The notes under the pieces were generated by a model. That model saw only the letters and a program-made list of their open reading frames with translations, was not told the origin of the DNA and did not search any database. Below are positions 4,406-64,000 of a stretch of 64,000 nt of DNA, piece by piece; positions within the stretch are counted from its first letter, which is position 1, and each line of letters begins with the position of its first letter. Both the position numbers and the translations under genes were made by a program. Origin of the DNA: Zygnema cylindricum. Lineage: Eukaryota > Streptophyta > Zygnematophyceae > Zygnematales > Zygnemataceae. The stretch spans positions 209,860 through 273,859 of the forward strand of contig JBBHKE010001749.1 of the NCBI GenBank assembly GCA_037447655.1, in the 5' to 3' direction.

Positions 4406-7400
4406 TTAGATTCCAGCTCCACCAATAAGATTGTCGGATCCTTGTAGTCTCACGGCATCTTCCCATTGTAAACAAAATTTCCTCGCTACGTCTAAAAAAA
4501 AAAAAAGAGAGAGAGAGAGAGAGTCGATACATCGAGACGATATATTGATTACCGGGTACCCAAAATTAGGTACATATCGAATATCGGCAAGGGTCCCTCG
4601 ATACACAACACTAGATAAAAGCATAAAAAATATGGAAACATTAAAACTATAAAAGCACAAAAATGTGAAGACACAAAAAAGTCGAAAGCAAAAAAAACAT
4701 GAAAGCGTAAAAAACATGGAAGCAAAAAAAAAAACGAAAGCCTAAAAAATATGAAAGCATAAAATTTGTACCATGTTTCATCGATAAGGCGGGAGTTTTC
4801 TCCTCGAGCATCCCGACGACTTTTGCCGGTGTTCCAGCAACCATACTGATAAAGACGAAAGAAAAAAAAACACAAAAGAAAAAGGAAAAAAGACGAATCA
4901 CAACAAAGAAAAACCGAATCGCAAAAAACTAGGAAAGAAGACTTAAAGAAAAATAATGATCAACCAATGTCCAACTCTTCTCCTTTGCAGAAGTTTCCAT
5001 ATAATGAAAATCGAAAGCCTGGTTACTATATGATAACCAAGAAACCCATAAACAGAATCCCCCTCTCCCCCTCACCCCCTCTTCCCCTCTTCCCCTCTTC
5101 CCCTCTTCCCTCTCCCCTCTCCCCTGTCTCCCTCTCAACAGAACCATTCCTCTCATAAATGACGGTGTTTTCCAATTTCCTTGTTTGAGAAAAAATAATC
5201 CGCACAAAATAGTCAGTTATACAGACCATAAAAAAGAGGATATTTTGACTGCATCAAAAGAAAAAAATCAATTTCTCAAAAAATACAGTCAAAGGCAAGA
5301 AATCCAGGCATTCCACAAAAGACTTAGGAAAACCATCTCCGTTAAAAACATATTTTTGAAAAGAAAACGAAAAACCCAAAAAATTCCGGAAAGAACTTTA
5401 AGAAGACCAGGAATATCACCTGTGTGGAGGAACGTTTTTCAAAACAAGAGATCCAGCGGCAACCATGGCTCCTTTTCCTACAGTTATATTCCCTAATACT
5501 GTGGCTCCAGCCCCAATTAAAACCCCTTCATGAATTTTGGGATGTCGATCTCCGGCCTCCTTTCCCGTGCCACCGAGAGTGACACCCTGCATTAAAATCT
5601 CACAGTTTCAACACTACTTAGTTTTTAACAACTTTCAATCTCACAGTTTTAACACTTAGGTTTCTGGACAAATTTCATTCTCACGATTTTGACATTATTA
5701 GGACTTATCATCTCACAGTTTTAACTACACCAAGTTTCTGAACAACTTTCAATCTCACAGTTTTGACAGTATCAGGTTTCTTCAATTTCAGAGTTTTAAC
5801 ACTAACGAAGTTTCTGAACAACTTTCAACCTCACAGTCTTGGCATTATTAAGTTTCTGGATGACTTTCATTCTCGCAATTTTAGCATCAGTAGGACTTTC
5901 AATCTCACAATTTTGACACTGTTAAGTTTCTGAACAACTTTCATCCTCACGGTTGACAGTAATTAAATTTCGGAACAACTTTCACTCTCACAAATTTGAT
6001 ATTATTAGGCTTCTGAACATCTTTTATCCTCCAGGTTTTGACAATATTTAAGTTACTAAATGTACATATTTCGAGCACCTGAGCATACCATTTTCCAACA
6101 CAAAAACTACATGTTATCCAAGCTACTCATAATACAGTTTAAAAAATGGTTAATTTTGCACCTGAAGCATAGGTATCATAATATTGTTTGTTTGAATCCC
6201 TTTGGTGAAGTAAAAAGAAAGAAATGATTTACTTTCTCACCTGAAGCATAGACACTCTATCGCCTATTACAGCCGTTTCTCCAATTACCACACCCGTTCC
6301 GTGATCCAAAAGAATCCCATATCCTATTTTCGCAGCTGAAAGTGTCCGATAGCAGAAAATGTCAGCAAGTAAAAAATTACTGTTATGGCCTTAGAGTAAA
6401 TCTTAGATTATGGCCTTGGAGTAGACCAGTTTAGAGTAAATATTAGATTATGGCCTTGGAGTAGACCAGTCTCTCCTTTCACAATTCTACGTCAAAACAG
6501 CTCCAAGAATCTTGAATAGAGGTGAATGTAACAGAAAGTATACAAATCTCTACTTAAGATCGTAGCGATAAACTGGACTCACAAGACAAAGTGAATTCTT
6601 GGATTGCTTGTACTAAACATGACTTTATGAGAATGCTTCCCTTACAAAGCAATACAACAATGCTTTTCTTGCAGGGCGCTGAAACAACATTTTGACAAGC
6701 TACACCATTCACCGCTATTAGAGTTAATAACACTAACTCGGTCGCAAGCACTTTTTTAACCCGAACTCGTAAATTAGTGTTCTTGTGTGCATTTTAACGA
6801 GTGGACAGAAAGACGCCGCGTCATTTAACCCTGAATTAGTGTTACTAAATCTGACTTAGAATAACATTGATGATTCATTTACCCAAAACATGGTAAACGG
6901 TATAAATTCTTAAGTACTACAAAAATGTTCCGCTTACCTGGATGAATGTCCACAGCAAAGACCTGCAAAACCTAGCCCAACCGCCACTGTAAGTGGAAGA
7001 GTGAAAATATGTACGTTTGGCGATAAGCTTCGACATAATCGTTGGCCGCAAAAACAGCAACGTGTTTTCCTAACTATAAAGAATGAAAATTTGTAGGTTT
7101 AGGCAAGACTATAGGCATTAATAGTTGAAATTTTGACCGCTTCACAGTAAATAACGTGGCATGTACTAGTTAGTCAACCCACCCTATCTTGAATATCCTT
7201 CCTAGGGATCCATACCGAGGGCGAATTTCCGATAACAGATAATCGGTAATTTTGGTTTTTTTGTCCACAATACCCTCAAATTCATACTAATGGTGGCAGA
7301 TGTTGTAACAAGCCAAAGAAAGAATTTAATAAAAAAAAAACAGCCCAAGCTCCATACAATAGATTACGATGAACGCTTCTGCCTTCGTTTTCATTTTCAG

Positions 7401-10400
7401 CCTCAGGTATTATTTCTCAAGACTTCACTATCGAAACCAAAAATGTACAGACAGCCTTGAACTCTTCATTATCCATAGCAAAAAAAAAAATGTACAAACA
7501 ACATACCTCACTAATACGGCTCTGTAATGCCAAAGCCAAGACTTTCTGTCCCCTTTTCCAAAGAGCGTGGCCAATTCGATACGATTGAATAGCATGATAA
7601 CCCTGCAAAAGCCACAAGTAATTCATCAGTTCTAGATTTGAGACCACAGTTAGTGCGGATGAACTAACAGCAAAAGGGGAAAATAGTATAGTCCGCGCCA
7701 CCTCATTAATGAAAAATTCACCTTCTCTCCCGTAATCCCTTCTTGTCATTTTCTCTCTTTCTCCCCTCCTCTCCTTCCCTCTTGCCTTCACCCTCTCCCT
7801 CTCTCGCTAACTCACACATTCACTCTTTCTCCCTCTACTTGTTGAGGGGCCGAGAGAGAGAGAGAGAAGGTCGCCAAAATCATTCTGTAATAGATGAATA
7901 TTTAAAATTTTAGGACCTAATATGATTATAGTCCAGAGTGGTTACAGTGACAGCTGCAGCGAACTGACAAAATTCCAAGGGTATTCTGGGAAAAAGGAGA
8001 TACTAACAATCGCCTAAATCTTAAGAATTTAATTTAACTAAGATGCTTTTTTTTTTTTTTATGCTTCAAACCTTAAAATAGAGTAGTGCAGAGCTGTACG
8101 AGCGACATGAAGGATCACGATCTTTCACTGCCTGCATTGCATAACAATTTGCCCAACAGTCATATAAACAGTTTTGTACCAAAAAATCTGAGAGATGACA
8201 CACGTGAAAAATAAATTACATAACTAGCCAAGACATGCAGAAATTCAAACAATAGTATAAACGTGAAACCTACAACCAATATTCCCTTGAGCTTTTTAGG
8301 ATATATAGCAACATCCACATCCTCATGGCTGTGACTGACATTTAATGTCGATGATTTAAAGTCCAAGTACATAAAGAATCATGTACTAACTATTTCTTGA
8401 AATAGTACACTATTACGCCGCCCATCGCTATTAGAGTTAATTAATTATAAGCGTTAAGAATTCATTAGAACTAACTATACTAAATTACGTATTGTAACAT
8501 GGCTCATTACAGGCCACAGAACTAATTAATGTTATTAACAATAATTCATGATTTTAGATCAAAGAAACACTCCCACGAATTAAGTGATCAAACTCTAACA
8601 ACGATTCACGGTGTAGCGCTCTTGGTGAACTTCATGAGAATCTGCGTGCAACAGATTGCATACGTCTACTCTAAGGTGATTGGTGCATAAGTTCCATCCT
8701 CCATTAACACTACCATTCAGTACACCTCTCACCAAAATTAGTATGGCTTCCGCTGACAAGTTGAGGATTGTTAACATGTATCAACACATTGGCCACACAA
8801 ACTGACGTTACTGCAACTCTCATAGATAAAAGTGCATCTGGCATTACTTCACGTTCTGTACAAGACATAATTGATGACCATCAAACTGACTTAATACATA
8901 AATAGTATGAATTACACTAAACTTGGCAAACGGTGTAGCATCCTACTATATTCAGAGTTTTCATCACATCACTAAAAGGCAACATCAAGCAAAAGCTATA
9001 AGGCTGAAGTACAACGAATAGCACAAATGTGCAAAAACAATTGGAAAAGCTATACGTCGTGACCCCATACTATATGCATAGTAGTGTTTTTGTACATTGA
9101 ACTATGGTAGAAAGACACTAACCTGTACATCTGCCCTTATGGCATGGCGAATAGAGTCTTGCATGATGACGTCATCGAACACGTCAAGAAGTTGTGTGGC
9201 TAAAAGAGTCGCATTCTTCAATCGGTTTGCAAGAACAAATCCAAGCGACCTTTCGAAACAGGAATGTGCCAAAATACTGGCATACAAAAAACTGCTGAGG
9301 AGAGGCTCGCGTTCAGCCTGGACACTCCCCAAGGCATCCAAAAACAACCGTCAAATTGTCAGATTCACATAAGCATCAACCCAACCAATAAGCTTCATTT
9401 GACTTTTAATGATAAAATTGACGATAATGATGACAGTGGAATACCATAATCCTAATCCATAACCTCACTTTCAGAACAACAGGAACAACAACTACAACAA
9501 CGTAGCATTCAGTAAAGGAACTTGAAATATCAAAAAAAAAAAAATCCGCGTGGAAAAGTTATCTTTCAGCTCAACAGCCCCGACAACCTAAAGTCTGTGA
9601 CAGCAAACAAAGTGAAATGAGCACTTTACAGTTTTATTTTCTGATAACGAGTACAACCAGGCAAGGCAGGCTTTATCACTGACAAAACCAAACGCCACCA
9701 AACTCATAAATAAACCAAAATTAAATCATAACAAAAATGTCATGCAATTGCCAACACTACCTCAAACAAAGTTGAACAACTAACTAGCAGTAGTCATATA
9801 CTTCTAGTTTCGCCACCAAATGTCACTAGGCTCATAAACCATAATTGAACCATAAACAGAACAACGAGCAATTATTTGACTCCCTCGACCAATTGGAATC
9901 TTCTCGCTCACATTAGTTGACCACACAACAAGTAACATGACCAAAATATGACAAAAAGTTGACCAAAACATGACCAAAAAAAATGTAAATACCTCAAATA
10001 AATTCGAACAAGCAATCAACAGCAATCACATACCTCCAGTTTCGCCTCGGCTCTTATGGCTGCCCATACAGGATCCTTGTGAAGAATCTCGGGCATCTTT
10101 TTTCCGGCGGTTACGGGAGGCTGTGCCGCTGAAGCTGCTGGAGTAACCATTGAAACATCAACATCCTTATCATGCTTACCATCCTTCTCTTCCTTATTGA
10201 CAGAGTTTTTCAATCCATAGCCTGTTTCTTTCCATTCATATCCTATTTTTGTGGTTGCTTCACTTGCTCCTTTAGAAGCTCCAATTGCTTTCTCTTCACC
10301 TAATCTGTTCCCTCCAGATACACAAGGGCCACTTGTAGGCACGCCATTAACCGCCTTTCCAGGCTTGGCCATTTTTACACCATTAACGAGCTCCTCTTTC

Positions 10401-11353
10401 CAGGATTTTGCTAACTCTTTATCCTCCTTACTTTGCATGTAAGCAGGAAAAGCATTTTGCCACTGCGGTTCTCCTCCGTCATTAACATTGTTAGAAACAT
10501 TATTAATTTTATTCATTGACTCTCTTCCCTTTGTGCCTATCGTTTTCTCCGGCAAAATTTCCTTTTTTGAGACAAAACCAGAGTTTGGTGATATTTTAGA
10601 AATTTCTTCAGAATTTGGACCGGAACTTGATTGTCCTTCCCCTACCACTCTCGGTTGCCTTCCCTTCTCTTCAGAAAGAGACGAAAGGGAAGAAGCGTTG
10701 ATAATGGCCGTTTCTGAGTTAAAAGTAGGAGGGCAGGAAGAAGAAGGGGAAGGAATGGAAATTTCTGAGTGAGAAGAAGAAGGGGAGGAGGAGGGAGGCT
10801 GAGGAGATTGTGACCGACTTTGGATAAGAGAGGCACCAAGTGCTTCAAAAACACTTTCGGCAGATGGTTTTGAAGACTTGTTCAACTTTGAAGACTTGTT
10901 TGGTTGAGAAGACGGAGAAGATGATGTTGAAAGATTTTCTTCATTAGAGGCATTAACCCTCTTTGAAACACCGTTTCTTCCGGATGCTCTAAGAATCTTA
11001 TTGCCTTGGCCTGCGAATTTAGTGATAAATCTAAAGTTGTTGCTGTTATTGGAGCTTAAACTTTCAATACTTTTGATGTATGTACAGTTATTAATTTTGA
11101 AATCTTTGATATCACTACTGAGTAGTCCCAAATGGCTGCAATTTGAAGCAAAAAACTTGCTTCCAACTTCTTTAAGCTTTTGCTGTAATGAATCATTATT
11201 GGAATTCATGTCTATTCGAGGTGAAGTAAAACATAAATTCTCACGTTTCCAGCGCCCTTCAATAGCTGATGAAGAAAATGAGAAGGGAGAAAATGAAGAA
11301 AGAAAATGAGAACCTTCGATATGAACTGAAAAAGCAGTAGCCATTACCTTCAT
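4406..11353 (-). CDS. Serine O-acetyltransferase, nine exons, long N-terminal extension
   Basis: This enzyme makes O-acetylserine from serine and acetyl-CoA, the first step of cysteine synthesis. Exons on the minus strand: 11353-10034, 9317-9123, 8131-8072, 7602-7507, 6962-6938, 6335-6241, 5586-5420, 4845-4772, 4491-4406. All junctions are GT-AG and in phase, giving 2118 nt, 705 residues plus TAA. Residues 1-420 are Ser/Pro/Asn-rich low complexity, much longer than usual in plant enzymes, and may include an organelle transit peptide. The SATase N domain begins at [14 protein letters not shown]. The left-handed beta-helix carries VDIHP, LLDHGTG and DRHPKI, which hold the conserved Asp/His residues. 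The protein ends GGAGI, with the C-terminal Ile that docks into O-acetylserine (thiol)-lyase in the cysteine synthase complex. ATG 11353 is the first start; ATG 11344 is also possible. Confidence 0.93.
4524..4613. mobile_element. Terminal fragment of a TATCG-rich TIR element
   Basis: It lies in the last acetyltransferase intron. It ends in CGATACACAACACTAG, matching one terminus of the elements at 26079 and 56728, and carries internal TATCGAATATCGG. Only one end is recognisable. Confidence 0.55.
5590..6060. repeat. Degenerate minisatellite in a serine acetyltransferase intron
   Basis: About ten imperfect tandem copies of a unit near 43-50 bp. The core words are CAACTTTCAATCTCACAG, TTTTGACA and TTAAGTTTCTG. 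It fills most of the intron between exons 6241-6335 and 5420-5586. Confidence 0.8.
6378..6471. repeat. Tandem duplication of about 45 bp in an intron
   Basis: The segment containing GAGTAAATCTTAGATTATGG and CCTTGGAGTAGACCAGT occurs twice in direct orientation in the acetyltransferase intron that follows the 25-nt exon. Confidence 0.7.
9029..9095. mobile_element. Solo terminus of the foldback-like element seen at 40261
   Basis: The segment starts GTGCAAAAACAATTGGAAA and continues with ACCCCATACTATA. This matches the first 50-60 bp of the element at 40261-41360, including the CCCATACTATA word. No partner end is visible nearby. It lies in an acetyltransferase intron, just upstream of the acceptor-to-donor exon 9317-9123 on the opposite side. 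Confidence 0.6.
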
Positions 11354-14486: not shown

Positions 14487-19174
<4,688 letters not shown>

Positions 19175-23200: not shown

Positions 23201-24188
23201 ATGGGAAAACGATGTCATAAATTTTGGGATCCGTACGCCAAATTTCATAAAATGACAAAAAACGCGGCGGTGACGGTTGGGGCGGTTGGTTTCGATCGTT
23301 TTGGAGCGTAGCGGCGGACAAAGATGCAGTTCTATGCGTCAAAACTCGACAGCTGCGTAAAGCAAACGGCAACTGCCGTCCGCCATCGGACATCATGTTC
23401 GGAATGCACTTTTTCGTTCTTGAAGAATTTCGAAAACGAAGCGCACGGACGTGAACCGTACAAGAATTCATTCCGTCGCAAACTTATGAACAAACAAGGG
23501 ACCAATCACATAAGAGAACACGTAATGTCAAAAAAGAAAAAAAAACCGATGGAAAAAAAAATGAAGGGCATGTCCAAAGTTCCTTCGCGGTTATTTTCGG
23601 TCTGTACAAACGCTTGCGTGGCAGTACATTTTGGTTTGCAAGGATTCGTACATATCATGTCCGAAAAGCGTTTCCTTTTTCGTACGGGCAAGTGGCTCGT
23701 ATCACGACACGCTAGTTGACGTAGGCTAGCGTCACGTGCCAGTTCACGGTGGACAAAATAAAGTACCGTTTTCATACCATACCGTTTTCCCCTTTTTCAA
23801 GTGTGAACAACGCAAATTGCTATGAAGCGAAAGATAATTGAAAAATAATTCTTTTGACTACCTCGTGATTCACGATATTATAGAGTACACCGTGTATCGC
23901 TGTTAGTGAAAATGCCGAAAAAAACATTAAAACATCTTTTTCTACTTTAATAGTTTAAAATGTCGTATTGTATTTTAACTCTGAATTTTTTTTTTGAGTT
24001 TTCGTATTTTTATTATATAATAAGTCAAAGCTGGTCAACGCATTTTAAAAAATATGAAATTTTGAATAATGCGCATATGCATTCTTTTTCAAAGTTTTTT
24101 ACCGTGCGCATACTACGAATGAAACCTCTATGGTTTGAAGTGGGTGAAAAAACTCAAAAACATTCACACACTGTACTGATGCTTGGTG
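20261..24188. other. Transposon-rich intergenic region
   Basis: No confident gene. A minus-strand frame at 20758-21045 is Cys/His-containing (see findings). The segment 22000-22350 shares blocks with 44100-45010 (GTAGACG words). The palindrome at 22395-23160 is listed separately. Open frames at 22803-23719 look like by-products of repeat composition. Confidence 0.45.
22395..23160. repeat. Palindromic element, arms of about 230-250 bp
   Basis: The left arm (22395-22625) and right arm (about 22910-23160) are inverted, diverged copies. Examples: CCCATGAATGAAAGTG against CACTTTCATTCATGGG, and GTGTGGC against GCCACAC, with GTACATG words in both. The spacer is about 285 bp. A third, more diverged relative lies near 45380-45640. 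Confidence 0.7.
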
Positions 24189-24407
24189 TACACCGTGAAT
24201 CGCTATTAGTGTAATATAATTCTCGCCACTTAAACATACTTTCTCCGTACACACTTGTCCGATTATCAATTTGAGACCACCAATCGGATGGTGGGAACCT
24301 TGGCTTTCAATCGCAACCGTCAGATCCATTTTCCGACAAGCGTGTACGGAGAAAAGATGGTTTAAGAGGTAAAAAAAACATTAGCACTAATAGCGATACA
24401 CGGTGTA
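24189..24407. mobile_element. MITE group A, copy 1, just upstream of selenoprotein H
   Basis: A 219-bp foldback element. The left end is TACACCGTGAATCGCTATTA and the right end, read inverted, is TACACCGTGTATCGCTATTA. Inside is a second inverted pair, TTTCTCCGTACACACTTGTC against GACAAGCGTGTACGGAGAAA. There is no coding capacity. The flanking TA would fit a TA target duplication. Confidence 0.9.
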
Positions 24408-24496
24408 CCATACTGTACTGATTCGTACACATTTGAAAAATTTCACTCCCTCAGCATATCTTTTTCTTGGAGGAACCATATCAGATTTTGGCTGCC

Positions 24497-25298
24497 ATGG
24501 CTCCTAAAAGGAAGGCTCCTTCCCGGAAGCTTCCGCAATCTAAGCAGGGAAAAGTCGATGTGGAAAGTACACCGGGAGTTTCCACGAAGGCTGCGTCTCC
24601 TGACCGTACGGACGGAGCATCTTCCAGGAAAATGATCATTGAAGCATGGTGAGGTAGACTGCCATTTATCATTTCCTCGTGTTTTTAGGTTTTCTTCCCT
24701 CATTTGGAAATATATATTTTTTAGAATGTATGTAGATTCTTAAATTGTTCCATGGAATGATTGAGAATATGAATTTGAGAATGTGTGGAATAATCTTTCG
24801 ATGTTTATGAAACAATATTGGCTCCATTTGACTTTTATTTATTTTTTACCGTCTTTATTCCTGATTTTTTTTTGTTTTTTCTTCGCATTTGGTAATATTC
24901 TTTGGATTTGCTAGTTTTTTTTTTCCCCTATGTATATTTTTTCTTTCCTTCTTCACTCGATTGCAATTTCATTGTTGAATTGCAACCTCCCTATAAAAAG
25001 ATACACTGTATTTCGATTCGGTTAGTAACCGTGAGATGTTTTCATGTTATTTTCCGATTCTTTCATTGAAATACCTTATTTTAAATACTACTTTTTTTTA
25101 TGTCTGAAGATTGTATCCTTGTAGGTTTCGAGCTTAGTATTGCAGTAGATCTTCATCAATCAGGCAAAGTAGACCAATTGTTTATTTATTTGTTAGTCTT
25201 AGTATCATTATTATTGTTGTGTTGTTCTTATTGTTATTATTATTATTGGTGTTGTTGTTAGATATTATTATTATTATTATTAATAATATCAATTTTAA

Positions 25299-25331
<33 letters not shown>

Positions 25332-27148
25332 GTATTAATATTAATATTAATATTATTATTGCCGATGTTCACTGTCAATGCTGCTGTTGTAGTATTGCAG
25401 AATGTTTTAATTGTTTGTTTTTTTGTTATTTATTATGCTTATTGTTTGTGTTTATATCGTGTTATTGTTTGTAGTGGTATCTATTATGGCTACCGTTGTT
25501 TGTCTTAAGTCATCGTTGTGGTTGTTGTTGTCGTTGTTATTTTTTTGTTTTTTTTTGTTGTTTGTTGTTGGTTTTTTTTTAGTTGTACTAGAGATGTTTT
25601 AACAATTTCCTGTACAATTGTGACTTTTTTCTTTTTTTTTCACAGCAAGTCGTGAGGAGCATTTAAGACGAGAGCTGCTAAGATAGAAAAGCTTCTCAAA
25701 GAAGCTCTGCCCGATCTTGAAATCTCCGTAAATCCTGAGAAGGTACGCTGTTGACCACCATTAGTGTGGTTGACATTGTCTATTAACCAACTCAAATTAA
25801 TTGGACATGTAGATGGTCTTTTAATATGGATGGAAAGTTCATGGTGTATACAACCTTATCATCTACAGTTGTAACTTTTATAGGATTGTACTAATGCGAG
25901 CTATGGTGACTCAAAGTAAGAAAATATATCATACTCTAAGATGTCTAGTCCTAGTTTTGTGGTGTCGATAGGGTTTTATCTTGGGTCCCTCTCTTCCCTA
26001 ATGGTTTGTTCTTAATTAAAATTTTCCAATTTATCCCGCCTTTGCTTAAATTCATGTGTATTCACGAATGGTATTTCGTAGTGTTGTGTATCGGGTCAAA
26101 ACTTATCGCGATAAAACCGATTCTGATAATTATCGGTTATCGACCGGTGAGGGGTCTCGGTATATCGCTCCCGAACCAACAATATTTTTTATCGCCGTTA
26201 AGTGTAAAAAATATAGTATACTAAATCATAGTACTTTATACTATATTGTATTATATTTTATACGTTGTATAGTGTGGCATGCCACGTATGACAATCCGTT
26301 CCGTACTTTCGTACAAAACAGGACAAGTGTACAGTCTGAACCTTACAGTTATCACCGATAATTATCGGGCCAGATATATATCGGTAATTTATCGCGATGT
26401 ATCGGTTTTTTATCGCGATAATTCCGTTACCAATATACCGGACCAATATATCGGTTATCGGTTGGTCAAAAAAAGGTACAAATCCGTTATCGGCAAATGG
26501 CTACCGATACACACCACTAGTATTTAGTTTCAACTTTATTGGGACAGCTGGTCACTGTTTGTGTTAGAAATGAAGTTTGCGTTCAAGTTCATTATTGAAG
26601 CACTTTTATTCTAAATTGACCTTTTGATTTATGAACAGCCACGGAAAGGATGCTTTGAGATACGTGACGAGGCTGGTACGGTCTTTTTGTCTCTTCTGGT
26701 AAGCCCTGAACCATAGAAAATTACAGCTTGCTTGACTTTGATTAGATAAGCGATTCAGAGTACATTTGTTTCTGGTTTTTTTCTGCATATTCCCAAATCA
26801 ACTTATTCGTACCAGGTTTTTTTGTTATTTGTATTTTACTGTGCCTTTCTCTGTCAGTATTGTGCATCTTCTTCGTTCAAATTTTTGTCTTTTGTATGGA
26901 GTTGCAAAAATCTCAGTGGTTAATGATTGTTTGTCCGAAGGCTTTATGAGCAGCCTAGTGTTGTGATTTTGTCTTCAGTCTGTAATTTTGTCTCTTTGAG
27001 TTTTAATATTGTTCTTTTTGATGTGAAGAACACTATGTTTTTTGTTTTTTTTAAATGTTCATTTCAGGACATGCCTCGACCTTTCACGAAACTCAAAGCT
27101 TTGGATTTGGAGACTGAGGCAGCCGCTATCGTTTCCAAACTTTCGTAG
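24497..27148 (+). CDS. SELENOH: Selenoprotein H (redox CxxU protein), four exons with in-frame TGA
   Basis: SelH is a small thioredoxin-fold, nuclear/nucleolar redox protein in animals. Exons: 24497-24648, 25646-25742, 26639-26698, 27068-27148, all GT-AG and in phase, giving 129 residues plus TAG. The first 45 residues are a basic leader (MAPKRKAPSRK). Exon 1 ends IIEA then TG; exon 2 completes TGC and reads AAG TCG TGA, so the redox motif is C51-K52-S53-U54. After TGA the frame continues GAFKTRAAKIEKLLKEALP, EISVNPEKPRKGCFEIRD, VFLSLLDMPRPFTKLKALD and ends in an acidic helix, all typical of SelH. Other acceptors near the TGA (AG at 25648-49, 25655-56, 25658-59) run into stops, so splicing cannot avoid it. 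ATG 24497 has a strong context (GCCATGG); an in-frame ATG lies at 24467. The UGA meaning is inferred from conservation and the SECIS. Confidence 0.92.
25200..25370. repeat. TTA/ATT trinucleotide microsatellite
   Basis: Long runs of TTATTA and ATTATT lie within the first selenoprotein H intron. Confidence 0.85.
25653..25655 (+). other. TGA codon read as selenocysteine
   Basis: In-frame TGA at residue 54, three codons after the Cys codon that spans the intron. It occupies the U of the CxxU motif of SelH. Conserved coding sequence continues for 75 codons after it. Confidence 0.88.
26079..26520. mobile_element. TATCG-rich TIR element, copy 1 (about 442 bp)
   Basis: It starts TAGTGTTGTGTATCGG and ends CCGATACACACCACTA, an imperfect inverted pair. 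The inside is dense in TATCGCGATA and TTATCGG words. It lies in the second selenoprotein H intron and shows no coding capacity. Confidence 0.8.
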
Positions 27149-27149
27149 T

Positions 27150-27165
27150 CCGTTAACTTTAACGG
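27150..27165 (+). other. Short perfect hairpin just after the selenoprotein H stop
   Basis: CCGTTAA, CT, TTAACGG forms a 7-bp stem directly after the TAG. Its role is unknown. Confidence 0.5.
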
Positions 27166-27204
27166 AGAGTTTCGCAGGCAACAGAACTGTTGACTCGAGC
27201 ATAG

Positions 27205-27265
27205 AATTGCATGACCTCACCCAGGGAAAGTCTAAAAACGACACCTGGACAGAGGGAGCCGAAAC
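27205..27265 (+). promoter_or_regulatory. SECIS element, form 2, in the 3' UTR of selenoprotein H
   Basis: The SECIS recruits SBP2/eEFSec to decode UGA as selenocysteine. The quartet is formed by ATGA (27211-27214) and GGAG (27255-27258), giving the tandem G.A pairs 14/56 and 13/57. Helix II pairs CCTC (27215-18) with GAGG (27252-55) and CCAGG (27221-25) with CCTGG (27244-48), with a small internal loop. Then comes GAAA (27226-29), supplying the conserved unpaired AA 12 nt after the quartet, and a mini-stem GTC/GAC (27230-32 with 27240-42) closing an A-rich loop. This is the form 2 layout. It starts about 60 nt after the stop. Folding was done by eye. Confidence 0.85.
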
Positions 27266-27289
27266 GGTGAAGGCCGTTAATCTGTGTCT

Positions 27290-30200
27290 TGAGATAATAA
27301 TCTTTTGCTTCTAAGATTCTCTTCCCTAGTTTTCTCTAGTATTGTTTCTCTTCCTTAGTATTTTTATGACCCCATCTTGAACTCTTCTTTAACTGTTTTC
27401 TCGAGTCGTTGTGTTTTTTTGAAGGTTAGTCTGCTTTCAAAGAGTGGAGCTTGTGTCTTAATTAATTATCTGAAGTTCAGAAAAAAAGTGATGCGAGGGC
27501 AGTGATAGTGAAGGAGGATAAGTATGCCCTGTTTCTGATGAACTATTAATAAGATTGATTCAATTCAAATGAACTATTAATAAGATTGATTCAATTCAAA
27601 TGATTTAAAATCATTTAGGTAAGGAGTGGAAACAAAAGGCAAATAAGTTAGTTAGATGGAATGGGAAACGAGGAAGGCCAAGAACAAAAGTCTCAGATTT
27701 GAGCGGTACCGTTCGACATTGCGGGGATATGCAAGGGGTGCACGGTCAGGGTCTAAGTAGTTTCAGCCTCCGTGACGATTCTGGAATGGCATGGGAGGAT
27801 CACTACAAACATGTAGGGCTTTGGGACTTGAACTCGGTTTTGAGGAGTTGCTAAAACACGACATCTCGGGGATACTTATGTCGGCAACTGGGAGTCTTGG
27901 GGTGGTCGGGAAAGGTGAAGGAACCCATGGCTTGGAAGTCTCGGGCCTAGCGGGGCTTTCCTGTCGGTGTTCGGACAACACTTCACTAATGTGATGAGAC
28001 CCAAGGGTTTTCAAAGCACGTTTCGCCACGGGGGTCTTGGAATCCTACGTAAGAAGAACGAGGCCACTGGAGGTTCTCGCGACGAATGCTTCAAGACACT
28101 ATCACTGTCTTCGGACGGACAGGAACCTTGAATCCTCGTAATGAGGGGTTTCAAACACCCGGTGCTTTCGAGTTTTTGGAGACTCAAAACATTGATGCTT
28201 GACGACGGCAACCTTGGGAGAGATGGCGTATTTCCCTCGCGTGCTCGGCAATCTCAAGAGGACATTGCATGGCGATTGCTCTTTAGTAAGAGCCGTTTGG
28301 TCCGTAGAGCCTGGCAGTGTTTTATTGAGGACACCCCCGTCGTTAGACCAGAATAGATGTACTTCTGATGTGCTGTCAAATGGGCCATAGCAAGTTTGTC
28401 GCGTGCACCCTTTAACCTGAGGGAAACCTTAAAGGCATTAACGGTACTTTGGGTTGGCGCTTTAGGCGCCTTAGGCTCGTCCAAAGTTAGTTAAGGACTA
28501 AGACCAAGCCATGGCCGGTGAAAACGGACGGGTGAGATTCGAAAATATAATGGCTAAAGGGACTTTAGCGAACCGGGAAAGGTTTCTTTGACGCGGCATA
28601 TATTTGTGTGAGAATGCCCATTGGCTACTACTAGGGGTTGGGGCTGGGGTTTGTAGTTTTGTTTTTGAGAGTTGCCGTGCTTTTCATTTTGAGTTAGGGT
28701 GCATTTATTTTCCTTGTTGTTGCTTCCATTTTTTTTGTGTTCTTGTTGCTCTTTTTGTTTTTTTTTGTTCTTTTTCAGTGTTGGTCATGCCACCCCTTTT
28801 GTACCCCCAGACTCAGATGGTTTACCATCGTGCTCTTTTAATTTATCCTGCATTCACTAGACATTTTGGATATCCTTTTTGAAAGCTTAGGGAAAAGGTA
28901 TCAAAAGAGTCGTTTGGACTTTTACTTACAAAGTTATCATGAGTGATAACCAAAGGTCTAATTGAGTCGTTATGGGATTCAGTTCGTTTCCGAATCTTGG
29001 CACTCATTATGTAAATTGCTGACTTTATTAAGAATTGCTATGGTAAACCATCTCATTATGTGGTTAAGGGTGCTTGGAGCGTTCATATGGACTGGTCTAA
29101 CGACAGGGGTGTCCCTCGGGCTGGGGAAACTTAACGGGGTTGCTTTTTGTAGATATTTGATTGAGTTGGGTTTGGGGCTGTTGTTTTGGTTTAGTGAGTT
29201 GTCATGCTTTTCATTTCGAGTTTAGGTGCTTTTATTTTACTTGCCATTTTTATGTCTTCACGGTGCTTTCTTTGTTTTTTATTGCCCTGCTTGTAGTTTT
29301 TCAGTTTTGGCCGTGCCACCCCTTTTGTACCCCCGTACTCAGATGGTTTACCATCGTGCTGTGTCACTATATCTACAGGAACAGATTCAGAGCAATATGG
29401 AAAAAAGGAACGTTAGACGATACTTTTGACTTTTGGTTACGAGGGACATTTTGGAGGTAATAACGGGAAGGTACCTAACACACTAGAAACGGAAGGTTTA
29501 GTTCGAGGAGCCATAAATCTTCAAAGCTCTCTATAGCTGATCCTACAGAGAATCTGATCGTACGTAGAACCCGAGGCTGTGGATTTGAGTTTGTTGCGCT
29601 CGAGGTCGATCGACGGTTAAGGCAAGGCTCGGGGGATAGATGAAGGAGGGCCCCTAGGTCAATGAGACTTCGAAATTGGGATTGGGTCTAACAGGTCAAC
29701 TCGAGAATTCAGCTTCGAGAACCCAAAGGGACTAAAAAAAAAAAAGGTCTTACGGTGTTGCATGCTCCACAAGTCCTAATTTGCGGGGCCTTCTCGTATG
29801 TTACAAGGTATATGGGCAATCATTGCCTTTAGCTTGGCAGTAGAAAGGAAACAAAGCGAGATTGGTACCTTCATATTGTGGACAATCAAATGTCAAAGAT
29901 TGAATTATTTCCCAGAATTCCAATGTTTCCATGAATATTTTACCTTCTTTACGACAACATTATTGAAAAAAATCAGGAGGTTTAAAAGGTATACCTTGTA
30001 TGGCTATGAGAGTTACAAGGTTTTATTCACCAATTAAAATTAAAAATTTTTTGCTCACATGTGCAATTGGCCAGAAAAAACCTTAGTGCCAATAGTGATA
30101 CATGGTGTACCATAAAACATGGTGTACCATAAGACTTGGTGTACATTTGACATTTTAAGCAAATATTTGGACAAGTTCGAAAATAGTGTTTTTTTTAAGA

Positions 30201-37100: not shown

Positions 37101-40100
37101 CAAGACAAAACCGTTGAATTATTAGCGTTACTGTTTTTTTTTGGCCTTAAATCATCTTTTCTCTCCGCAAAATTGTCCGATTAATACTTCGACGGTTCCA
37201 ATAAAAAGGTAAGATCCTTACCTTCCAATTGGCAATCTCCGAATGGAAATCAGACACATGCACTGAGAAAATATGATTTGAGTGGCAAAAAAAACACCAA
37301 CACTAATCACGATACACGGTGTACTTTCCAAGAATCAGCTCAAATGAATTGCTTTTGATGCAAATTTTCGCTTAAATTGATAACAATTTTCCTAAATCCA
37401 TAACAATCATAACATAAAATGCTACATATTCTTGGAAAATGGAAACAGTGAGCACATGATTTCCTCATGCCTTTCCCTATATCTTAATTCTACACCAAAA
37501 TAAATACTGGATTTACGAATATTTGAAAAGAAAATCTTCAACACTTGAATATTTAAAACAAGAGTTTGCAAGATACAAATGATTTCAAGGCATATGGCCA
37601 CCAAAGAAACCTGCGTCTTTGTTGTGACAGCCCTATGAAGGGTTAGACTCAAGAACTAGAATACTACACTATATCATAGTTTTACTATGCAAAAAGGTAC
37701 AGAAACGCTATATGTGATAACCCTCTACTATACTTTTATTATAATTAAGAAAACCCATACAGCAGTATAATACAGGGTGACCAGATATAGCTTCTCCACG
37801 GGTTTTCACAATTTTCAACTATGTTTTTTATACAATATTACATTATATAACTAAAAACTAAAACATTATGAATCTACCAATCTAACATTGTTCTATGTGT
37901 TCAAAAAAAAAAATCATAAGTTGAGCAAACATTCTTACACACAGTATCCAAAACCTCTTTGTCTGCTTAAGGGGTGAAACAAAGGTGATACCAGTAAAAG
38001 TAATCGCAAAAGTAATACATTTATATGCAAAGATATCGAAAATTGTTTGAGACAAGAGGCTGGAAATAGACTCGTAATTAGCCTAGATGGACTATTAACA
38101 CAGGAACAGGTAAATAAAATGGTCCATAAATGTGTCTTTAATTGTGTATACCTAAATGAGAAATTCGTGTCCTCTGAATTAAGGATTCTTAATTGATGTG
38201 GTCCATACAAAATATTGCTGGATTGGAAAACATCGATATGAAAATTATTGTAGCAAGGACTACATCGCCATTGGAGTTAACCACTCTAATTCAAGTGTAT
38301 GTTTTTTTGACCCAAAATCATAGATTATTGTTGTTAACACTTATTAAGTCAGCGGCCTGTAATGAGCCACTTGTAAAACATTATTTAGAGTGGTTTATTT
38401 TGATAAAACGTTGACGCGAATAATTCACTAACTTTTGTAGTGATGTACGGTGTACCTCATTGAAATGACATCCTCTTGATCACCACAAAAGGACAAACTG
38501 TCTTGACCAAGCCCAATGGTGTACTTTCCAGTACTCACTCCATCATGAATTTCCAGCTCCGACTGAAAACGATAAAAGGAAAAACAATAAAAGGCAAAAG
38601 TCTTAGAATTTCAAAAAGAAGAAAAAGCAATTCATTCATTTCTCTCACTCCATCACGGATTTCAAGCTCCAACTGAAAATGATAAAGGAAAAAACAACAA
38701 AAAAAGCCAAAAAGCTATGCGGGTTTCACAAAGAAAGAAGCAAAATTCATTCATTTCTACGATTTCTTTCTGAAGCAACCTCAAAATAAAAGACAGGAGT
38801 ATGGACAACAGCAGGCTTTCACACAAGTTATTTAGGTTCTAAGCCACCATTACTCATTCACTTTAAAGGTATATTTTATTAAACGCCTTGATTACTTGAG
38901 TGTAACGGAAAAGACAGATAGATCAGAACAGAACAACAGTAACTTAAGCATGGAGCAAATTACTAGAGTGAATTATTGGAGTAAAAATTAGAGAAGGGCA
39001 TTTATTAACCAACAAAAAATTCCCTGAAAAATGAATGCTACGCCGTAAATCACTACACCGCTAATCATTATTAGTGTTAAAGTTTTTTCGCCACTATTTT
39101 TTTTTTTCTCCGCACACACTTGTCGGACTGTCAATCGGATGGTTCCTATTGGAAGCCAAGATTCTCACCTTCCATACTGGCGGTCTCCGATTGCAATCCG
39201 ACTAGTGTGCACGGAGACAAGATTTTTTTTAGTGGCGAAGAAAACTTTCACACTAATAACGATTAGCGGTGTACTTAGCGTAAAGAAATATACAGCGCAA
39301 AGTTAATTTTAGTGTTATTAATTCAAATTAAAGTCCAAACGACCTAGAAAATTTTCAACCGCTTACCAAATTAGCGCTAAGAAAAAAACGACTGGTATTA
39401 TTAACGTTATTTTATGTGCAAGGGCCAAAGAAATAGAGTGCAATGCAAAAAGCCATTCAAGCTGTACTGTAAAACCCATCGCTGTCCGTGTGAAGGAGTT
39501 ATCAGTATGAAAACAAAATTAATATCAATTAGTAAGTGCCAATTTAAGGAAAGTCCGTGAAATAATCTTATTAACACATTTTGAGATTTTCGGCCAAAAA
39601 AGGTCGCGACCAAAATAGCGCTACCAACACTAATAGCGATCGTGCATGTACACTTCACACAGGTATTAGAGTAAATAATCCTAATATCATGCGCATTTTT
39701 TCAACCCACAACCATAAATTAGTATTCATAACACTAGGTAGTTAAGAGGCCCTTAATGAGCTACATGACGAAACATAATTTACTGTCGCTTATTGTAATA
39801 ATATGTTAACACTAATAATTCACTAACTCTAATAGCAATGTTCCCTTCAAATTCAGGGTTTAACGTGTTAACAAAAATATTCACAGTTTTTATATATTTA
39901 TAAACCACGGGAGCTCACCAAATATTCATAGGGTCCAAGTTTCTAATATTCGCAAAAATAAATGTTATTTTTAGCCAAAGTGCTGTTTTATACTTCCTTG
40001 TTGCATCATTTTTGAAACCATTTCTAACATACTACTTTTGGAAATTAAGTTTATTAAGGAAATCGGAAATTAATATTGGCAAAATGCAGAGATCTCATCA

Positions 40101-48666: not shown

Positions 48667-51600
48667 TTAAGACGACGATGTCGAATTCTCACGTAAAAAA
48701 ATCGACCTCGGCGGGTAAGAATTTTCCACATTCGGAGTCGCCGGAGGTTTCGGCGACAATCCCAAGAGTCCCGCCGGATTTAGCGGCTTCGAATTGGAGG
48801 CATTTGATTGGTCCAAAAAGAAGAGGTTGCGATTTCGCGGAGATTTTGGCCTAGGCGACGATTTTGAACTCTCGCAGCCAATAGGAAACAAGGACGCAGA
48901 TTCCGCCGACAAATTCATTAAATTGCCGTCGAACGAATCCGAGGACGAGATTTTTTTGCTGTTAGCGCCCGCAAAAGTAGCGGCCAATCGGAGCGTTTCT
49001 AGGAGTAACGTTCTCGGAGTCGGTGGAACCGCAGTGGGAGAAGGAGAGGAAGAATAATCTCTCGATTTTAGACTGGACTGGGTTAAAAGGGGTGTCGGCT
49101 TGCTCCAAGAAGGTATCGGAGACGTCGGTTTTGAGGTTAGGGACGCCGATTTTAGGTGCGGAGACGCCGATTTTAGGCTCGGAGATATGGCAGGGAGGAG
49201 AGAGAGGAGCGGGAGGAGAGGTTGGGAAGAGCTAAGGGATTGGAGGGATTGGAGTGGCGACAAAATAGGGGATACGGACGGTCCGGAAGGGATGGAGAGA
49301 GCGGACGGTTTCCGTTGGGCGAACGGTTTGAAAATAGTTTTGTCGTTTTTGAATTTGTTCGGTTTAGGTTCGTGGGTGGGAGTACAAGGTTCTGTCGTTA
49401 GCCAAGGGTGGGACATGACGTCAGAAGCTTTTGGCCTTTTGTGAGGATCGGCTGTCATCATTTGTCGTATTAGGTCTTTGGCTGATTCGGATACCCATAC
49501 CCATGGTCCGGAATTCATAGCCAGCTCGCCTCGGCAAATACGTGACGCCGTGTCATGTACGGAAGATCCTTTGAAAGGAAGAAACCCTGGCAGAAAGGAC
49601 AAAAAACGCAAGGCATCCAGCCTTAGACGACAAAATACGAATCGCCAACGGTAGAAAAACTTTTACAAAAAACGACAAATAACAGTTCAAGACAAAGCAT
49701 TTCCAAAAAAACAGATAATAGAGACAAATATAAATCCATGTTCCAAACTTCCAAAAAATAATTCCGTACGACTAGCCAGCCACAGAACTTTGGTATGTAT
49801 AGGACAAAAGAAAAAGAAACTATAAAATCCAAATAATACGCGGACATGCGTGGGTTCCGTACAGGAAAGTTGTTGAGACCCTAAAAACCCTAAAAAGCCC
49901 TAGAAAAAAAACTCACCGGAGAGCATGACGTACAAAAGGGCTCCGAGGCTCCAAACATCGCTGGCTCGGGAGCACTCCTGATTGGCTACGACTTCTGGCG
50001 CCATATAGTACACCGAGCCGACCCACCGACCTGCCACGCCTTCCGGACCGACCAATCGCGCGAGACCAAAATCCGCAACTTTTGGCTCGACCTGCCCGTC
50101 TTTTCCTTGCGTGAGCAAAATATTTTCCGGTTTCAAGTCGCGATGCAGAATGTTGCGGTCGTGGCAAAACGACACGGCGCCGACAATTTTCCTGGAAAAC
50201 GACAAAAGAGCAAAAATAAATTAGAACAAAAAGAGTTAAGACAAAAATTAAATAGATCGCAGCCACTTTCCAAAACAAAGGTCGAGACAGAAAAAAGTAC
50301 GAAAAAAAAAAAAAAACAAAGGAAAATGAATAAAACAGAGCGTAAAAAAGACAAATAAACAAAAATAAACGTACGACATGAAAAATTTGTCGTTTACCTG
50401 AAAATACTGGACGCAAGTTCTTCCGGCAGCCACTTATGCGTCTCCACGAGAGTATACAAATCGCCAGCCGTACAGCGCTCCATAATTAAATGTACGGACG
50501 ACTCGTCTTCCAAAACTTCAACGTGGCGCACGATGTGAGGGTGACGTCCTAGTACGGCAGCCAGCCTCGCCTCCGTCCGTACACCATCTGTCGCTTCTCC
50601 AGGCTGAAATTAACAACACGACAAAAAACGTACCGTTAGACTTCCAGACAAGGAAAGGAGACGTCCAATTTTGGCGGACTGTCACATTTTGTCCTATACC
50701 GTCCCAAAAATTGTCCCTATCGGGACTACGCCCTTCCAAAAAAATAAATATGCCTTCCAAAAAAAAGAATGCCCTTCCAAAAAAAAGAATGCCCTTCCAA
50801 AAAAAAATGACGCGACAAAAGGGAGCTACGACGAATGAGACAAAAATTGTGACATAAAAAAAGAAATCAAGGACTTAAAACAAAAATCGAGCACAAGATA
50901 CAAAAAATGATAAAAGCGAAAGAAGACAACAAAACCAGAACAAACAAATAGTACCACACTGTTTAAGGTTTCCAATCTTTTACTATTTTCACATATCCAC
51001 CAAAATCGCCATAATGATTAATAAAAAAGGCATAAATTATTAAATTTCTTTTCAAATCCAAACCGTAAAATTCAAATTTCCGAACTTCATTTCTAGCCAC
51101 CCAAATTAATTTAAATTACCAAAAAACAAGAAATTAAACCCACAATCCACAGTAAATCTCAACATTATCCCCAAAATTGACCAGGCATCCGTACGAAATC
51201 CCATTTTTTGCACCAAAACCGTACGGCAGACCTCGATATTTCCAGAAAAAAGAAGAAATGGAAACAAAAAAAAAGTAACAAAATTATATTCGGACATTTA
51301 AAATCGAATTCTCACCGGCAGATTCGATTTCATTACGGTCTTGCAGGCGTATGGCTTTTTGTCTTTTATGCCGACACACGCTTTCACCACACCAAATTGT
51401 CCTCTTCCGATTTCCTCCCCAAGGATATATTTTCCAGCCAATAGGGACTCTGCAAAAAAAGAAAAAGGAACAGACAAAAATAAATAAACAAATATAAGCA
51501 AATAAACAAATATAAATAAATAAAAAAAAAATGAATAAATAAATAACTAAATAAATAAAAGAGAGAAATCGTAATTAGTGTGGAAAAAAAAATACAAATT

Positions 51601-62600: not shown

Positions 62601-63036
62601 CCAAAGGGTGTTGGAGCCACGGTGAAAGCCGTTGTCAACATAACTGAGGTTTGTCTTTTCCCCGATACCAATTGATACTGCAGTATGTGTTGCATTCTAA
62701 TCATGCCTTGATGCATGCATGTGATTCAGGTGTTTGTATCTAGGACATTTGATGTAATTCAATGTTATGGTTGGAAGCAGTGTTTTCTTACTTTTTGCCT
62801 GATGAGTGTGTGTTACTTTTCACTTGGTCGTGCTTGTTCCTTTTTCATTTTTTAATTTTTAACTGTGGAACACTCATCATTCTCCATATATTTTTTTTGC
62901 AGTTTGACGAGTTGGAGCTGACGGATGCTGTGGCGTTTGTCCGCCCAGTGAGCATTGCATACCAAGTTGTGGCAGACTTCAGATTGTACAAAAGTGGAGT
63001 TTACACCTCAACATCCTCTGCAAATCAGATCCAATG
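59670..63036 (+). CDS. Aleurain/cathepsin H-like cysteine protease, first seven exons
   Basis: A papain-family vacuolar/lysosomal protease, an aminopeptidase in the cathepsin H group. Exons: 59670-59860, 60077-60198, 60455-60567, 60990-61063, 61470-61599, 62514-62648, 62903-63036, all GT-AG and in phase. [18 protein letters not shown] is a signal peptide. ATG 59646 is an alternative start eight codons earlier. The propeptide has an I29-like region ([18 protein letters not shown]), then QNCSAT, matching the cathepsin H mini-chain. The mature enzyme starts near [19 protein letters not shown]; the catalytic Cys is in GCGSCWTF. It continues with [38 protein letters not shown] and [11 protein letters not shown]. 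The last exon ends in phase 2 (TG). The exons with the catalytic His and Asn are not seen before 64000, so the gene runs past the window. Confidence 0.92.
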
Positions 63037-64000
63037 GTATGTGGATACTTGTGCTGTTTGCGAGTTTGTCTTCAATGTTTTATGTCCAGTGGTCGAGTAG
63101 GATTCTTTGTGAGAGGCTGTATAACTCAGGAAATAATAAAAATGATGGACTGCAAAGTGTAACTCAGAATATACATACATAACCAAAGCCTCCCTTCATT
63201 GGTTATAACAAATTTTGAGGCAGACAAAACTGACTTAAGCAACTAGTGCACAGGTTTCCCTCACCTCATTTTCTGGTTTTTATGTTGTTCAGCTGTTCTT
63301 GTGCATTTCTTATTACACAAAGAGGATACCTATGGATTGCGAAAACGTTTAACAAAGATGACTTAAAACCTGTGGTCGAACTATCATTTTTTTTTTTTTT
63401 TGTAGTCATTGAAGGCATCTGCGACGGTTGTAATGGCTGGCTGGCTTTCCTTGGTCTACTTGTGGTGATATTGTGCCTGTTTCGAAAAAATATGTCACAT
63501 TCATTAATGGGTCCCTGGCATCCACTTTGTAGAACTATCGATACCCTCATTTTTTTTGCCACTTAATATAGAGCTATAGATACCTTCATTCAATTTTCAT
63601 GTGTTCACTTTAGTCCCTTAAAAGGACGTGGTTCATTTTTTGACACTTGGTGTGATAGATTCACAAATCGTCTATGATTGTGTTGCACTATCGTCTTCTG
63701 ACACTTCTCTGTGAAAGCTGGACATGAAATGCGCTAGTTATTTTTCTTTGCAGTTGATGAAATTGAACACTATCCGTAGTTATTGAAAGTCTTGAGAAAG
63801 ATTATGTAGTACAAGTGGGTCTTACTTGAGCTGCTTGAAGACAAGGGTATGTGTAAATCCAATGCAAGCTTTCATTTGGATCAATAGAGCTGCCAAGCAC
63901 TTAGTTTTCTGTTCATATTTTTTGCCTGTGAAGACTAACAGAAGTAGAAATTGAGCCATTTGGTGGTTAGAAACTTCGTTAACAGGGGTATGGTTTCAAT
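63037..64000. other. Probable intron of the protease gene
   Basis: It begins with a GTATGT donor. No exon coding NHAVLAVGYG-like sequence was found, so this is taken as one long intron continuing beyond the edge. Confidence 0.55.

Follow-up and report, generated by a model that had tools for sequence, protein, structure and literature searches.

Studies of selenocysteine (Sec) usage in the green lineage provide the frame for the gene described here. In the portions of PMC6627142 that are available, the full Sec machinery is reported from all major streptophyte-algal lineages; in the Zygnematophyceae it is known from two genomes, the transcriptomes being incomplete, and selenoproteins are found in 15 of 40 zygnematophyte transcriptomes. 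The same text places the loss of the Sec machinery in the ancestor of the land plants, which are without it, and leaves its retention in the Desmidiales open. The available part of PMC7539508 counts SELENOH among the most widely distributed algal Sec proteins and describes the selenoproteomes of the Streptophyta as small. A comparison of zygnematophyte genomes reports, in the sections at hand, one expanded "selenoprotein" family that is not named as SelH (PMC11096116), and the accessible text of PMC11092101 contains nothing on SelH. As far as the available parts of PMC6627142, PMC7539508, and PMC11096116 go, SelH of the Sec type is thus to be expected among zygnematophytes. Among the papers listed on selenoproteins of streptophyte algae, none names a Sec-type SelH from the Zygnematophyceae; one may be included in the supplements of PMC6627142. 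Eukaryotic Sec decoding requires SBP2, eEFSec, and Sec-tRNA, according to the available text of PMC2746813.

The window, the whole stretch of 64,000 nucleotides analyzed here, contains a gene best explained as nuclear SelH from a streptophyte alga that is most likely a member of the Zygnematophyceae. On this reading, to which we assign a probability of roughly 0.87, the UGA at codon 54 is translated as Sec by means of a SECIS hairpin. The gene consists of four exons on the forward strand. Exon 1 (24497-24648) starts with ATG, encodes a lysine-rich N terminus (MAPKRK...), and ends at its 3' side within the cysteine codon of the CKSU motif. Exon 2 (25646-25742) supplies the rest of the Cys51 codon and contains the in-frame TGA at 25653-25655, which is codon 54. 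Exon 3 (26639-26698) is joined in phase, and exon 4 (27068-27148) ends with a TAG stop. All borders follow the GT-AG rule, and in-phase joining gives 129 codons plus the TAG. The sole internal stop is the TGA, which completes the CxxU/CxxC motif as CKS-TGA (codons 51 to 54). The preliminary description had joined four exons in phase to a 129-residue SelH with the TGA at the U of CxxU, and its coordinates and phase prove to be exact. The 75 codons 3' of the TGA are intact and conserved and are bounded by proper splice sites. The in-frame TGA is flanked on either side by conserved coding sequence, the mark of a eukaryotic selenoprotein gene.

The read-through protein matches TIGR02174, the NCBI model for SelT/SelW/SelH, with 36.8 bits (cut-off of 34.2), and its score against Pfam Rdx lies below the cut-off (20.1 versus 22.6 bits). 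A search with the whole protein retrieves 118 relatives; the named ones come chiefly from land plants and green algae, and several of the close ones are annotated as selenoprotein H. This agreement between model and named plant and algal relatives supports the earlier assignment to the SelH family. The homology excludes a chance origin of the reading and bears out the claim that conserved coding sequence continues past the TGA: the best E value is 3.6e-29 when the whole protein is the query and 1.4e-25 when only its post-TGA part is used. The MAPKRK start is common to the relatives P0002 and P0010 and appears as MVMAPKRK in P0003 from oil palm. A 15-row SelH alignment used as the query gave no match among solved structures at an E value of 1. 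In a tree of 38 rows, a group of 14 rows with the named land plants is separated from the other 24 rows, including that of the window, with support of 99/95; the tree is built on few columns (73) with midpoint rooting, and no conclusion on its root is drawn.

The protein of the window shares with green-algal SELENOH the Sec type of SelH and the common core NPEKPRKGCFE...LLDMPRPFTKLKALD. The rows from Chlamydomonas, Pleodorina, Coccomyxa, Haematococcus, and Elliptochloris do not contain the Sec site as annotated, which precludes a row-by-row comparison of this site with green-algal SELENOH. The SelH of Micractinium shows CQVC at the Sec site, in contrast to CKSU in the window. Land-plant SelH has the same core and a similar MAPKRK start, with oil palm P0003 as the best named land-plant row (58% identity over 71% of the query), but it is a Cys form, mostly CKQC, and not a Sec form; according to the available text of PMC6627142, the Sec machinery is absent from land plants.

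Among the 118 relatives, the position of the TGA is occupied by Cys in 61, Trp in 4, Ser in 3, and Arg in 1, and the other 49 were set aside by the filter; CKQC accounts for 42 of the 61 Cys rows. Four of the filtered-out rows (P0015, P0033, P0036, and P0048) carry a plain Cys, the others being without clean coverage of the site. Cys thus stands at the fourth place of the motif in 61 of the 69 filter-passing rows, or in 65 of 73 if the four read by eye are added. All four Trp rows (P0021, P0045, P0049, and P0092), together with P0277 from the post-TGA search, have Trp at the Sec position as part of CKSW, with a CKS identical to that of the window. This Trp is probably a TGA that was translated as Trp by the gene caller of the source.

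If the TGA is conserved and gene callers take it as a stop, close relatives are predicted to be recorded as short post-TGA proteins, below the length admitted in the whole-protein search. A search with the 75 residues beyond the TGA returns 104 proteins, of which the two best by E value, P0239 and P0240, are 66 residues long, show 75% and 74% identity over 87%, and lie on contigs of 949 and 993 bases. Both begin at the tenth residue beyond the Sec site. As judged from their protein sequences, these starts fit the prediction, but they could also stem from an intron or a different start. Other rows, such as P0243 and P0246, extend back as far as the residue directly after the site, with unrelated residues ahead of it. 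That the nearest post-TGA relatives are cataloged only as short proteins suggests that protein catalogs hide Sec-type SelH genes. Relatives at the DNA level were sought as well, with 4 pattern matches on viral contigs and 33 on contigs of prokaryote genomes, none of which was confirmed by tblastn. The Sec site of the preliminary description is supported by the post-TGA homology and by the CKS-TGA motif.

A candidate form-2 SECIS element lies at 27211-27257 on the forward strand, starting 62 nt past the TAG of the SelH gene. It shows an AUGA/GA core, an upper stem, an unpaired AAA, and a small ministem, and its letters read AUGA-CCUC-AC-CCAGG-GAAA-GUC-UAAAAAC-GAC-A-CCUGG-ACA-GAGG-GA. The upper stem (CCUC..CCAGG with CCUGG..GAGG) comprises 9 bp with a 2/3 internal loop, and the unpaired adenines lie 12 nt from the AUGA. 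A scan of both strands of the window with the form-2 plan finds seven distinct sites, of which this one is the stablest (-12.7 kcal/mol). In 60 block-shuffled versions of the window, scanned on one strand (3.84 Mb in total), the plan finds 153 sites, of which 7 are as stable, equivalent to 0.001 expected per 600 nt under a rule that postdates the sight of the site. The free fold of 91 bases has a z score of -2.43, with 1 of 200 shuffles equally stable. When the region is folded without constraint, the upper stem is present, but most of the AUGA is paired with upstream bases. With the core held open, a helix of 2 bp forms beneath it, and a 2-bp ministem reaches -14.7 kcal/mol compared to -14.2 kcal/mol for the 3-bp ministem as drawn. 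The element resembles form-2 SECIS elements as described in the available text of PMC2746813 and PMC11227280 in its AUGA/GA core, upper stem, bulged unpaired adenines, and ministem, and differs from them in its 2-bp lower helix, the internal loop of the upper stem, the weak ministem, and the missing Rfam match. Rfam, used without a positive control for its sensitivity to algal SECIS elements, finds neither a SECIS nor any other match in the whole window at gathering thresholds; over 26600-28200 with E values of up to 5, it gives no SECIS and a single irrelevant CRISPR-repeat match (E value of 2.4), and over 27190-27290 with E values of up to 10, it gives no match. The candidate element is absent from the preliminary description.

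Two other explanations concern the TGA itself. It may be a true nonsense mutation by which a Cys-type SelH gene was switched off, as TGC and TGT are a single base from TGA and Cys occupies the site in most relatives that cover it (61 of 69, or 65 of 73 with the rows read by eye). Such a loss of function is improbable and is rejected on several grounds. The 75 post-TGA codons are undamaged and conserved, and their splice sites are in order. In its CKS, the motif agrees with the CKSW rows and not with the common CKQC of plants. A SECIS-like hairpin follows the stop, and the two best matches to the post-TGA part likewise start only past the site. Alternatively, splicing may remove the TGA from the mature message and lead to a protein without Sec. 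Combining GT donors at 24521-24900 with the exon 2 acceptors beyond the TGA does yield 26 open joins with donors inside exon 1, 3 of which are artifacts of the enumeration with an empty exon 2. All 26, however, use a donor at or before 24605 and delete the CxxU motif together with the preceding strand. From the natural donor at 24648, each of the 21 alternative AG acceptors (25251-25741) runs into a stop at codons 51 to 98, as had been claimed for the nearby acceptors, and none leaves an open frame. Splicing around the TGA at the cost of the redox motif is therefore rejected as very improbable, and Sec at codon 54 stays the preferred reading.

A further explanation is contamination, with the contig coming from a different alga than the organism for which the assembly is named. 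It is quite improbable as well and is addressed by the serine acetyltransferase gene on the reverse strand at about 4770-11353, of which eight exons were found and the 3' limit is approximate. Among the matches listed, its identity is 84% to three Closterium rows and to P0123, 83% to P0122, whose identifier style we take to be that of Spirogloea muscicola, and 78% to Amborella, the best flowering-plant row. In a 20-row tree of the window and 19 rows picked by hand from the best 120 of at least 8,000 scored matches, the window groups with the three Closterium rows and P0122 (100/97), with P0123 next (100/99). No named row of another streptophyte-algal class occurs among these best 120 matches listed or in the tree, so the placement in a class follows from the best acetyltransferase matches. 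The streptophyte-algal origin put forward in the preliminary description agrees with this grouping, and the contig is, to judge by this gene, streptophyte and most likely zygnematophyte, with the order, desmid or other, left unsettled by the tree. The acetyltransferase is the one gene used for this placement; outside the tree stand an exon of a papain-type peptidase at 62753-63097 and pieces of protein kinases, which lie at 15689-18026 and 48670-50220 (with 48670-49662 scoring under the Pfam cut-off). Since the acetyltransferase is streptophyte, the SelH gene would still be that of a streptophyte alga, whatever the name of the assembly.

With the Sec reading of codon 54, the hairpin 62 nt beyond the stop would direct the decoding of the UGA by recruiting SBP2 and eEFSec with Sec-tRNA-Sec. 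ARAGORN detects no tRNA in the 64,000-nt window. We infer that the gene is expressed, that Sec is actually inserted, and that the alga possesses the decoding machinery. The product would be a redox protein of the thioredoxin-like CxxU type, and its N-terminal tail is lysine-rich and basic; the presumed redox role follows from the family. SelH of animals has a nuclear role, and by analogy with it, the SelH of the window may have one too.

Selenoproteins were previously known from streptophyte algae, and the SelH gene bears on when the plant lineage abandoned them, without overturning the view that land plants have none. Its status as a selenoprotein gene of a streptophyte alga is well supported, and the alga probably belongs to the sister group of the land plants. 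If this placement holds, the gene, which is complete, of the Sec type, and accompanied by a SECIS candidate, offers a concrete means of dating when Cys took the place of Sec in the plant line, and its value lies mainly in the timing of this swap in SelH. As a tentative and rather doubtful extension, the alga may be a desmid or another late-branching zygnematophyte, with the CKSU SelH and its SECIS element representing the ancestral state of the CKQC SelH of land plants; the change from Sec to Cys would then postdate the split between Zygnematophyceae and land plants.

Several other features of the window are of note. The first exon of the acetyltransferase gene (10016-11353, reverse strand) encodes 426 residues ahead of the conserved DPVWAAIR, and this extension is rich in serine and asparagine and has no Pfam match. 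Following the first kinase pieces, the tract at 18465-19167 shows long Cys/Leu/Ser/Val repeats in three overlapping frames and is probably a low-complexity repeat, not a gene. A copy near 57.2 kb of a repeat in intron 2 of the SelH gene was suspected and was not found. An element of 524 bp at 23885-24408, which looks like a small nonautonomous transposon (MITE), has terminal inverted repeats of 30 nt with 90% complementarity and ends 88 bp ahead of the SelH start codon. Further copies of the end of this element are located internally at 24188-24211 and at 37301-37324.
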